A DNA stretch of 64,000 nt from Flavobacteriales bacterium (GTDB taxonomy: Bacteria; Bacteroidota; Bacteroidia; Flavobacteriales; Flavobacteriaceae), in contig JALWTX010000013.1 of assembly GCA_026993355.1 (NCBI GenBank), positions 62,001 to 126,000 of the forward strand. Direction: 5' to 3'. The position numbers were made by a program, and so were the translations under genes. Shown here in pieces: positions 22,643 to 62,320 of this stretch. Each line of letters starts with the position of its first letter. The stretch's first letter is position 1. The notes beneath the pieces are model-generated. The model searched no databases, had not been told where the DNA came from, and saw nothing but the letters and a program-made list of their open reading frames with translations.

Positions 22643-22784
22643 AAGCGCTTAAGAATAAGAAGATAATAATCAAAAATAAGGTCAAAATATCTTAAGCAAA
22701 GGTATAAAATATTGCCAACGACAGATTAAATAGTTATTAACAATAAGAACAAAATAGGCTTATATTGTTGTAAAACTTCATTCT

Positions 22785-59441: not shown

Positions 59442-60197
59442 ATGGAGCAAGCTTATGTTAATTTAACGGTGGAACGTCAAATTGGAATTATTACTTTTTA
59501 TCATCCTTCGGCCAATGCCATGCCGGGATATTTATTGAGCCGGTTGGCTCAAACTATTACCAAGGCCGGTGAGGATGATCGGATTAGAGTGGTTGTCTTG
59601 CAAAGTGAAGGACGGACATTTTGTGCCGGTGCTTCGTTTGATGAATTATTGGCACTGAAAAATCATGAACAAGCAGTCGATTTTTTTATGGGATTTGCCC
59701 GTGTTATAAATGCCATGCGTGAAGCCCCCAAATTTATTTTGGCTAAAGTACAAGGCAAGGCTGTGGGTGGCGGTGTCGGTCTTATAGCGGGTGCCGATTA
59801 TGCCATAGCCAGTGAAAAAGCCGCCGTTAAATTGTCAGAGCTATCAATAGGCATCGGTCCATATGTAATAGGTCCGGCTGTGAAAAGAAAAATAGGGATT
59901 GCGGCTTTTTCGGAATTGTCTATTGACGCTACCACTTGGCATACAGCTTTTTGGGCAAAAGAAAAATCTTTGTATGCCAAAGTTTTGCCTTCTTTAAATC
60001 AATTGAATGAGGCCATTGATTTTTTGGCTGATAAATTGCTTAAATATGATCCGGTTGCGACCGCCCGTTTAAAACAGGATTTATGGGATGGAACAGAGAA
60101 TTGGCCTGTTTTATTGGCTGAAAAAGCAGAAATTTCGGCCCGTTTGGTCATGCAAGAATATGCTAAATCCTTTTTATCAAAATTTAAAAAGACTTAA
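59442..60197 (+). CDS. Enoyl-CoA hydratase/isomerase family protein
   Basis: The 251-residue crotonase-fold protein has the oxyanion-hole segments GRTFCAGASFDEL and VQGKAVGGGVGLIAGADYAIA, followed by LSELSIGIGPYVIGPAV. The catalytic Glu pair of classical hydratases is not clearly conserved (SELSIGI region has one Glu), so it could be an isomerase or a hydratase with another CoA substrate. It could feed into the same acyl-CoA catabolism as EtfBA, but it has no beta-oxidation neighbours. The palindromic element begins 20 bases after its stop. Confidence 0.85.
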   Translation: MEQAYVNLTVERQIGIITFYHPSANAMPGYLLSRLAQTITKAGEDDRIRVVVLQSEGRTFCAGASFDELLALKNHEQAVDFFMGFARVINAMREAPKFILAKVQGKAVGGGVGLIAGADYAIASEKAAVKLSELSIGIGPYVIGPAVKRKIGIAAFSELSIDATTWHTAFWAKEKSLYAKVLPSLNQLNEAIDFLADKLLKYDPVATARLKQDLWDGTENWPVLLAEKAEISARLVMQEYAKSFLSKFKKT

Positions 60198-60216
60198 CTC
60201 GTTCTTATTCAATAAA

Positions 60217-60378
60217 ACGGTTAATATATGGCGTCGTAGCGGGCTTAAAGTTCGCTTTCCTTCGCCTTATGCAACAATGATAGGAAAATTCATAGAATTT
60301 TCAGGTGCAAATACGCCTAAACATTGAAGTAGGCGAGAACCCCGCTATGCGCTATATATAGTGTTGGTAGCCGTTATT
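60217..60378. repeat. Nested palindromic element, attC-like in form
   Basis: An outer pair is tagcggg (60237-60243) with cccgcta (60341-60347), extended by atatatggcg (60224-60233) with cgctatatat (60350-60359, one G-T pair). An inner pair is tcgcctta (60262-60269) with gtaggcga (60329-60336). An exact apical hairpin gaaaattc-ata-gaattttc is at 60284-60302. All stems share a centre near 60292. The right flank gtgttggtagcc (60361-60372) recurs inverted at 61232-61243. The class of element is not identified. Confidence 0.7.
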
Positions 60379-60437
60379 AATATTAGCAGTTTTTAATCAT
60401 TGGATATAGATTAATAGAACTGCTAATTGTAAAAACA

Positions 60438-61031
60438 TTATAACATTTTACTCAATTGGAAACCAAAAATTGAAACTCCGTCGTCATGTAAATCTGTGGC
60501 ACCAAAAATAACACCCAACGCATAACTTTTAATATGATAGTTATAGAAAATTTTAAATGAATATGAATTTCGAACACCACTTTTATGAATTATACCTATA
60601 AAATCACCAGATGGATTGCTATAATTATAATAGTTATCTGAATAAATACTATATCCGTAACCTGCTCCAATTCCAAAATCAATTGAGTTGATTTTTTTGT
60701 TTTTAAAGTATTTAAATGGATTAACTAAAAGATAGATTTCTATCAGGCCTGCTGATTTTTCACCATTATTCCTATTTTTATTTATGAAGTACTCTTTACC
60801 ATCTATATCATTTTTATAATATTCAATCTGCTGTTTCTTTAATGATGAAGTTTCAAATGTAAAAGTAGGGGCAATTTGAATACCATTTAAGATTTCAAAA
60901 CCTATATCAGTTGAAAAATAATAACCATCAAATGGATTGCCATATCCGGCAAATCCCGTATTTAATCTTATTGTATTTTGTGAAAAAGTTAGTTGAGAAA
61001 TTAAAAGGGTAATAAAAAATATTTTTTTCAT
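60438..61031 (-). CDS. Small beta-barrel protein of a possible gene cassette
   Basis: The start at 61031 gives the signal peptide MKKIFFITLLISQLTFSQ; the frame extends 13 codons upstream without a better start. The mature part (about 180 residues) has alternating strands with glycine and aromatic residues (FGIGAGYGYSIYSDNYYNY, then SYALGVIFGAT), as in outer-membrane barrels. I see no named family. It stands alone on the minus strand between the palindromic element and an inverted copy of its arm, and its composition is more AT-rich than its neighbours. Confidence 0.7.
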   Translation of the reverse strand: MKKIFFITLLISQLTFSQNTIRLNTGFAGYGNPFDGYYFSTDIGFEILNGIQIAPTFTFETSSLKKQQIEYYKNDIDGKEYFINKNRNNGEKSAGLIEIYLLVNPFKYFKNKKINSIDFGIGAGYGYSIYSDNYYNYSNPSGDFIGIIHKSGVRNSYSFKIFYNYHIKSYALGVIFGATDLHDDGVSIFGFQLSKML

Positions 61032-61231
61032 AATATTAGATTTAATGATGATAAGTTTTCTATTGATCATTGATATTTTTTAATTCAAAAAATTTTATTT
61101 TGTTACCATACTACAAAGTAATAGTTTTACAAACTGATATCTTGAAACTATTAAATTAGGTTTTACATTTTACTCATCACGAAATTATTTTTTTTCTTGC
61201 TAATCTTTTATTAGAATAACCTTACTCCAAT

Positions 61232-61243
61232 GGCTACCAACAT
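61232..61243. repeat. Inverted copy of the palindrome arm
   Basis: ggctaccaacat matches the complement of 60361-60372 at 11 of 12 bases. With the first copy it brackets the beta-barrel gene. The 236-base gap between that gene and pdxA holds nothing else recognisable. Confidence 0.55.
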
Positions 61244-61267: not shown

Positions 61268-62320
61268 TTATTTATTTCTTAAGTGATTAGTTTTTAGTAT
61301 ATTACTTGTGAGTTCTGCCCATTCTTTACGTTTTTTAAAGATGTCAATAGCGGTAAAGACTGCTTCTCTGAATGAGCCGGGGTCGGCTATATTTTTTCCG
61401 GCTATTTCATAGGCGGTTCCATGGTCGGGAGAGGTGCGGATTTTATTTAACCCGGCTGTATAATTTACGCCTTTTCCAAAACTTAAGGTTTTGAAGGGGA
61501 TTAAGCCTTGGTCGTGATACATGGCTAAAATCGCATCAAATTTTTTATAATTATCGCCGGTAAAAAAACTATCAGCTGCATAAGGCCCAAAAACCAAAAA
61601 GTCTTCCGCTTGAAGTTTTTCTATAGCAGGACGTATAATTTCATCTTCTTCTTTCCCGATAATGCCACCGTCACCCGCGTGGGGGTTGAGCCCTAAAACT
61701 GCAATTTTAGGTTTATCAATGCCGAAATCTTGTTGCAAACTTTGTGACATAATTTGCACTTTGTCTATTATTTTTTCTTCAGTAATATGTTCAGCAACTT
61801 CATTAATGGGTAAATGGTCCGTCACCAAACCTATTTTTAAATCTTCGGTGACCATAAACATCAAGGGGCTTCCGGATAATTCTTGCGCTAAATAATCTGT
61901 ATGTCCGGGAAAGTCAAAAGCTTCACTTTGTATAGTTTCTTTATTAAAAGGTGCCGTAACCAAGACATCTATTTCTCCTTGTTTTAAGGCTTCAACCGCT
62001 TTTATAAAGGAATCAACGGCATATTGACCAATAATTTTAGTCGGTTTTCCTGGATCCATGGGCACCGGTTCTTTCCACAAGTTTAAAACATTCAGTTTAT
62101 TTGGAAAGGCTTGGTTAACATGGGTAATACCATGTAAGTCTATTTTTAAGTTGAGTAATTTTTTTTGAAAAGAAAGTGCCTTTGTAGAGGCATAAACAAT
62201 TGGTGTGCAAAAATCAAACATCAAATTGTTTTGAAAAGTTTTTAAAATGACTTCGGCGCCTATTCCATTTAAATCACCAACGCTTATGCCGACCTTTATT
62301 TTATTTTTTTTATTTTTCAT
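61268..62320 (-). CDS. pdxA: 4-hydroxythreonine-4-phosphate dehydrogenase PdxA
   Basis: PdxA oxidises 4-phosphohydroxy-L-threonine in the DXP-dependent route to pyridoxal phosphate. The 350-residue protein has VGISVGDLNGIGAEV at the start, the metal-ligand histidines in FPGHTDYLA and AMYHDQGLIPFK, and the ending RTSPDHGTAYEIAGK. The ATG at 62320 is preferred to one nine codons upstream because MKNKKNKIKVGISVGD is the usual start. The pdxJ partner is not in the window. Confidence 0.94.
   Translation of the reverse strand: MKNKKNKIKVGISVGDLNGIGAEVILKTFQNNLMFDFCTPIVYASTKALSFQKKLLNLKIDLHGITHVNQAFPNKLNVLNLWKEPVPMDPGKPTKIIGQYAVDSFIKAVEALKQGEIDVLVTAPFNKETIQSEAFDFPGHTDYLAQELSGSPLMFMVTEDLKIGLVTDHLPINEVAEHITEEKIIDKVQIMSQSLQQDFGIDKPKIAVLGLNPHAGDGGIIGKEEDEIIRPAIEKLQAEDFLVFGPYAADSFFTGDNYKKFDAILAMYHDQGLIPFKTLSFGKGVNYTAGLNKIRTSPDHGTAYEIAGKNIADPGSFREAVFTAIDIFKKRKEWAELTSNILKTNHLRNK

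Follow-up and report, generated by a model that had tools for sequence, protein, structure and literature searches.

In the 64,000-nt stretch of Flavobacteriales DNA analyzed here (the window), positions 60218-61240 very probably represent a single gene cassette of an integron-like system of the class Bacteroidia, whose XerA-like recombinase would act at G^TT. An initial annotation of the window had proposed an inserted cassette at 60361-61243; the cassette itself is retained, while its limits are redrawn here to take in the hairpin, which forms the 3′ tail of the gene (Table 1). All of the evidence is comparative, with one genome per species. A literature search that covered few subscription papers and had preprints outside its scope returned no description of such a system.

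The tail of the cassette consists of nested stems, as first described, and includes an exact 8-bp apical stem (GAAAATTC-ATA-GAATTTTC, 60284-60291 paired with 60295-60302). The strand spanning 60200-60390 had a predicted fold energy of -61.1 kcal/mol as RNA and -32 as DNA (z about -4.4), and 0 of 200 shuffled sequences reached its stability. The inverted copy of one arm that had been noticed beyond the gene was also recovered: gtgttggtagcc (60361-60372) is present in inverted orientation at 61232-61243 with 11 of 12 bases matching, and corresponds to the 1R/R″ pair shifted by two bases. When the window was searched with covariance model R1, whose training arrays all come from genera other than that of the host and whose E-values are rough, the element was the single significant site (60209-60372, E=1.4e-8), the next best match having E=0.69. 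That weak match (22710-22776, 67 nt, TTACAAC...CGTTGGCAA) is possibly a decayed or minimal site. The gene of the cassette runs antisense to its left neighbors, as originally stated. It had also been called a beta-barrel gene, and its sequence fits that description; the barrel as such is left undemonstrated by a single-sequence AlphaFold model with a pLDDT of 32, and a Pfam search with the 197-aa protein matched no family.

Table 1. Features of the predicted cassette and its surroundings, in window coordinates.
Feature	Position	Strand	Basis
Gene cassette (very probable), 1023 bp, from TTGGTAGCC (61240) to core G at 60218; predicted G^TT crossover at both ends	60218-61240	-	Boundaries by analogy with duplicated cassettes, in which identity ends at the GTT core
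1R, cassette start GTTGGTAGCC, then conserved A (61231) on the minus strand; 10/10 complementary to R″	61232-61241	-	Sequence
R″ box GGCTACCAAC, with conserved C (60373) before it on the minus strand	60363-60372	-	Sequence
Core GTT, distal (R′) end of the attC-like site; runs into native flank GTTTTATTG	60216-60218	-	Sequence
Cassette gene, 197-aa predicted secreted beta-rich protein, unknown family	60438-61031	-	ORF, sequence
Inverted repeat, 19-nt arms, 84%, between gene and R″	60373-60436	-	Repeat search
Flanking host gene, enoyl-CoA hydratase (echA)	59442-60197	+	ORF, annotation
Flanking host gene, pdxA	61268-62320	-	ORF, annotation
Apical hairpin, 8-bp stem and ATA loop	60284-60302	.	Sequence, fold
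Outer stem, arm 1 (partner 60341-60359)	60224-60243	.	Fold
Outer stem, arm 2	60341-60359	.	Fold
Putative attC-like recombination site (hairpin), 3′ tail of the cassette	60213-60372	-	nhmmer; covariance model R1 (rough E=1.4e-8 over 60209-60372); fold

Numerous copies of the element were found beside unrelated genes in the host genome and five congeners, the recurrence that had been anticipated for a mobile cassette; at the nucleotide level it is absent from most of the family. The copies share a core running from AACGG...GCGGGC to CCCGCTATGCGCTATATATAGTGTT and differ in the flanks outside it, and two contigs of genome G001 (C55 and C106) each contain at least four of them, head to tail and with genes in between. 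At many loci the flank of a copy, GTT plus 6-7 variable bases, is present a second time, inverted, at the opposite end of the neighboring gene. Read along the gene strand, the order of elements is a start of G^TT and variable bases, the gene, an R″ that complements this same start, the hairpin, and the next core G^TT, which on the basis of sequence is the anatomy of a cassette. For sites set by the covariance model, mostly outside its training regions, 67 of 77 R″ boxes agreed at 6 or 7 of 7 bases with the beginning of the cassette they belong to, whereas 6 of 87 did so with the beginning of the cassette that follows. At position 11 there is a conserved mismatch, with A at the start and C at R″; 97 such links were counted versus 2.95 expected, and the mismatch was present in 48/48 perfect pairs of model-defined sites. 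The window pair, in which GTTGGTAGCC is followed by A and GGCTACCAAC is preceded by C, carries this mark, and no other such link was found on the window's minus strand. No description of the A/C mark was found in the literature search, preprints being outside its scope. An array test with 10-mers, allowing one mismatch and free choice of GTT, was dropped because reversed-sequence controls formed chains of up to 8; a test with 14-mers was also weak, position 11 being a conserved mismatch, and was superseded by the A/C-aware and model-defined tests.

These ends also bear on the idea that the gene is an invertible segment, flipped between 10-bp inverted repeats by a tyrosine invertase as in Bacteroides phase variation. 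While the gene is indeed flanked by inverted repeats, and Bacteroidia use tyrosine invertases, the repeats are mostly particular to a cassette (48 distinct 1R heptamers among 77), the two ends are asymmetric in their A/C mismatch and in having the hairpin at one end only, and arrays are uniform in orientation, with 62 of 68 cassettes having their longest open frame in the direction of the integrase. We consider inversion a very improbable account of the locus.

In closed Flavobacteriales genomes, sites of the same kind follow one another head to tail in arrays located immediately downstream of a XerA-like tyrosine recombinase, with 139 and 125 sites in two closed genomes (G198 and G316, respectively); four genomes without a strong integrase match had 0, 0, 0, and 1 sites. 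Integrase homologues at E<=1e-70 were present in 82 of 296 Flavobacteriales genomes. Across 80 named integrase loci from public genomes (Polaribacter, Arenibacter, Gillisia, Algoriphagus, Maribellus, Spirosoma, and others), cassette links numbered 55 in 173 kb on the 3′ side of the integrase versus 4 in 434 kb on the 5′ side. A contig end was located within 500 bp 3′ of the integrase at 38 of the 80 loci, versus within 1000 bp 5′ at one; in draft genomes the position of the array coincides with contig ends, and arrays are likely under-assembled. Within the genus, tyrosine recombinases related to integron integrases are found at contig ends, and for most of them a GTT core lies no more than about 250 bp past the stop codon. 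An attI-like site, defined as an inverted repeat followed by GTT, was present at 17/71 loci versus 0/71 shuffled ones. Cassettes had a median length of about 660-710 bp and carried genes for unknown small proteins, toxin-antitoxin genes, and restriction-modification genes. The features of an integron in the wide sense that we found are an attI with a GTT core adjoining the integrase shortly past its stop codon, a cassette array beside the integrase in closed relatives, a palindromic attC with a GTT core whose structure is kept more than its sequence, and an R″ complementing the start of its own cassette (10/10 in the window pair).

One array (locus L146, genome G326) contains a cassette in three copies and others in two, at differing array positions. 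In the duplicate pairs, identity starts 1-3 bases before the core GTT and is lost no more than a few bases from the next core, with the exception of one pair that diverges earlier, ahead of its next core. As far as sequences can indicate, these boundaries are the footprint expected from site-specific exchange at G^TT. They also speak to the alternative that the initial annotation had offered, a non-autonomous repeat (MITE or REP-like) that merely lies beside genes. Such a repeat could explain why a palindrome of about 160-200 nt, with conserved ends, is dispersed through several congeneric genomes. However, the right flank of the palindrome complements the distal end of the same cassette and is thus tied to the neighboring gene, target duplications are absent, the arrays are uniformly head to tail and adjoin an integrase, and the duplications take in the gene, from core to core, instead of showing the palindrome moving alone. 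We consider a repeat of this type to be highly unlikely.

The initial annotation correctly reported no integrase in the window. A matching recombinase is encoded on another contig of the host (C11) as a 395-aa open frame 137 bp from the contig end, and the host's own array is not visible because the contig stops at that distance past the integrase gene. The protein has Phage_integrase and SAM_4 domains. It scored 225 bits against TIGR02249, below the IntI cut-off of 265, and passed NCBIfam NF040815 (236 versus 220 bits). In a comparison with the IntI4 structure (2a3v), two aligned blocks flanked an absent region; the spacing from KGxKDR to HxLRH is 58 residues versus 100-101 in IntI1 and an Aliivibrio IntI, and the additional domain specific to IntI (I2) was not found in the recombinase. 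In a tree, 11 IntI sequences formed one clade with 100/100 support and all 31 new sequences fell outside it. The catalytic part is closest to XerA (PDB 5hxy, 4a8e) in both sequence and fold, followed by IntI4. The new recombinases are thus similar to Xer proteins, but the known role of Xer is chromosome dimer resolution at a single dif site, whereas these enzymes head cassette arrays. At the N terminus they carry an additional domain of about 80-90 aa with the motif GxxWSxTxKCWY (L163 6001-6240 and relatives), of which apparent further copies occur in two longer proteins, of loci L096 and L097. Its best matches to the HARP domains of annealing helicases had E-values of 0.05 (PDB) and 0.0034 (Pfam), below thresholds, and we regard this similarity as a lead only. 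The NCBI annotation names some of these proteins "site-specific tyrosine recombinase/integron integrase". A recombinase on Acinetobacter and other plasmids (hits H9-H25), annotated as TnpF in one record, shares 51% identity with the host protein in its catalytic part. Bacteroidia-type integrases were also seen in two bins that bear the names of other phyla, a Bifidobacterium breve MAG record (L224) and a Rhodobacteraceae MAG (L164), and these are probably misbinned contigs or transfers.

The stems of the sites covary strongly, the outcome by which the initial annotation had suggested that folding be judged. In 34 sites, two-sided changes affected 14 of 18 pairs. In an alignment of 94 sites, which was fitted to the structure so that pairing figures lean that way, 94.8% of cells were paired, versus 75.4% when shuffled and 20-40% when slid, and two-sided changes numbered 274 versus 70. 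G-U intermediates were almost absent from these changes, which is consistent with a stem of DNA rather than RNA. This is of relevance to a reading of the element as a transcribed RNA hairpin, a terminator or riboregulator of the gene. Its position directly 3′ of the gene and its stable RNA fold are in keeping with such a role, but compensatory change without G-U intermediates is unlike RNA, there was no Rfam match beyond a chance one, and the gene has an inverted repeat of its own (60373-60436), a probable terminator, which can end transcription. We find an RNA function of this kind scarcely credible. The copies, the own-end rule, the covariation, and the integrase-linked arrays support the original reading of the element as an attC-like recombination site, for which a single-strand mechanism may be envisaged.

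In the circular form of the cassette, the bottom strand is nearly always predicted to be more stable than the top strand (-74.1 versus -58.1 kcal/mol for the window cassette). Where the top strand has the conserved A/C mismatch, the bottom strand has a G-T wobble, and it is therefore the bottom strand that probably folds, as a single strand, and is exchanged. We propose that the XerA-like recombinase joins cassettes at the G^TT core and that a double-stranded attI located just past the recombinase gene would recombine with the hairpin attC that closes each cassette on its 3′ side. On leaving, the cassette would form a circle in which a complete attC is restored, R″ pairing with its own 1R and the bottom strand folding with the G-T wobble where the top strand has A-C. 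It could then re-enter at attI, at another attC, or, as is suggested for the window cassette, at a secondary GTT site. Alternatively, the same cassette system may recombine double-stranded DNA, in which case the palindrome would be a cruciform-like or plain dimer-binding site and I2 would be unneeded. We weigh this reading because the recombinase has no I2, which is held necessary in IntI (PMC7790495), and the inverted repeat of the attI-like site is a plain one. Nevertheless, stems that are long and covary almost without G-U/G-T intermediates are most easily understood as a folded single strand, the G-T wobble arises on the bottom strand only, and the anatomy of the sites and of their own ends matches attC. 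Double-strand exchange is accordingly unlikely in our estimation, yet deserves serious weight.

The window cassette is solitary and far from the integrase. When its flanks are rejoined, they read AAAATG^TTTTATT between echA and pdxA, plausibly a secondary GTT target at which the cassette was inserted. An unoccupied locus had been named as a sign of insertion, and one was found at the gene level: in G009, the relative whose pdxA is most similar, the gene order is yicC-echA-pdxA, without the cassette and with a gap of 109 bp between echA and pdxA, although the rejoined flanks and this 109-bp intergenic region gave no base-by-base alignment. In two further genomes (G011 and G012), a gene other than that of the window sits between echA and pdxA. 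A homologue of the cassette gene (50%) occurs in G008, where reading by eye revealed what resembles a site remnant on its 3′ side. Elsewhere in the host genome, a paralogue of the cassette gene with 35% identity (G000:C13:45162-45731; L038 4163-4732, L268) is followed by a degenerate attC-like remnant, and is probably a second, decayed cassette outside the window. Two attC-like sites near the end of another host contig (G000:C18:34206-38553; L037) surround a gene for a 1237-aa DNA methylase/specificity protein and probably delimit a restriction-modification cassette. The R″ of the outer of these sites is GGCTACCAAC, the same as that of the window cassette.

Comparison with IntI integrons (class 1-3 and the Vibrio superintegron) reveals extensive likeness. 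Both have a tyrosine recombinase and an attI with a GTT core, and in both the cassettes are lined up head to tail, with an attC-like hairpin at the end of each and an R″ that is complementary to the first bases of the same cassette. The number of sites can exceed 100 per genome, and the cargo is similar. The differences concern the recombinase, with its extra N-terminal domain, its lack of the IntI-specific insertion, and its score below the IntI cut-off; the orientation, as the new integrase reads toward attI and has the array at its 3′ side with cassette genes in the same rather than the divergent direction; and the own-end match, which is longer here (10 bp plus the conserved A/C mismatch). 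We conclude that the system appears to work like an integron, but is not an IntI integron. By lying alone and away from an integrase, the window cassette resembles CALINs and cassettes at secondary sites, although its attC type and recombinase are not those of IntI; integron cassettes have been described to insert at secondary GTT sites (PMC10127599 and references there). Sites of the attC-like type at E<=1e-7 were present in 184 of 295 sampled Bacteroidia genomes, versus canonical IntI in 1 of 295; in the phylum sample, canonical IntI was found in 105 of 395 genomes, one of them in Bacteroidia. Model R1 identified 7 sites in a Chryseobacterium plasmid carrying the new integrase, none in three plasmids from records with IntI-like matches, and 5-8 in two genomes with canonical IntI; site architecture is therefore partly shared. 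In G335, R1 sites lie beside a canonical IntI of the same phylum (C1:1210334). The new and IntI lineages may share or exchange attC types.

Surveys of integrons have required the IntI-specific domain, and a survey with IntegronFinder found integrons to be nearly absent from Bacteroidetes (PMC9024848). The absence of this part of the enzyme may be the reason that integron searches missed the system, and a large gene-capture system of marine, soil, and gut bacteria in a major class may have been overlooked. Cassette capture is stated to require I2, a region that no other protein is known to have, while direct proof of its causal role is missing, since its deletion abolishes IntI1 function (PMC7790495). 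We lean toward the view, at somewhat better than even confidence, that Bacteroidia hold a separate and widespread integron lineage in which a recombinase lacking I2 acts on folded single-stranded attC and the role of I2 toward the substrate is taken by another part, e.g., the N-terminal domain. If a single strand is used without I2, the avoidance of second-strand exchange needs another explanation. If this view is true, the lineage would be a natural counter-example to the accepted origin of IntI by acquisition of I2, or a relic of the stage preceding it. The causal role of this domain becomes testable with a natural integron-like system that lacks it.
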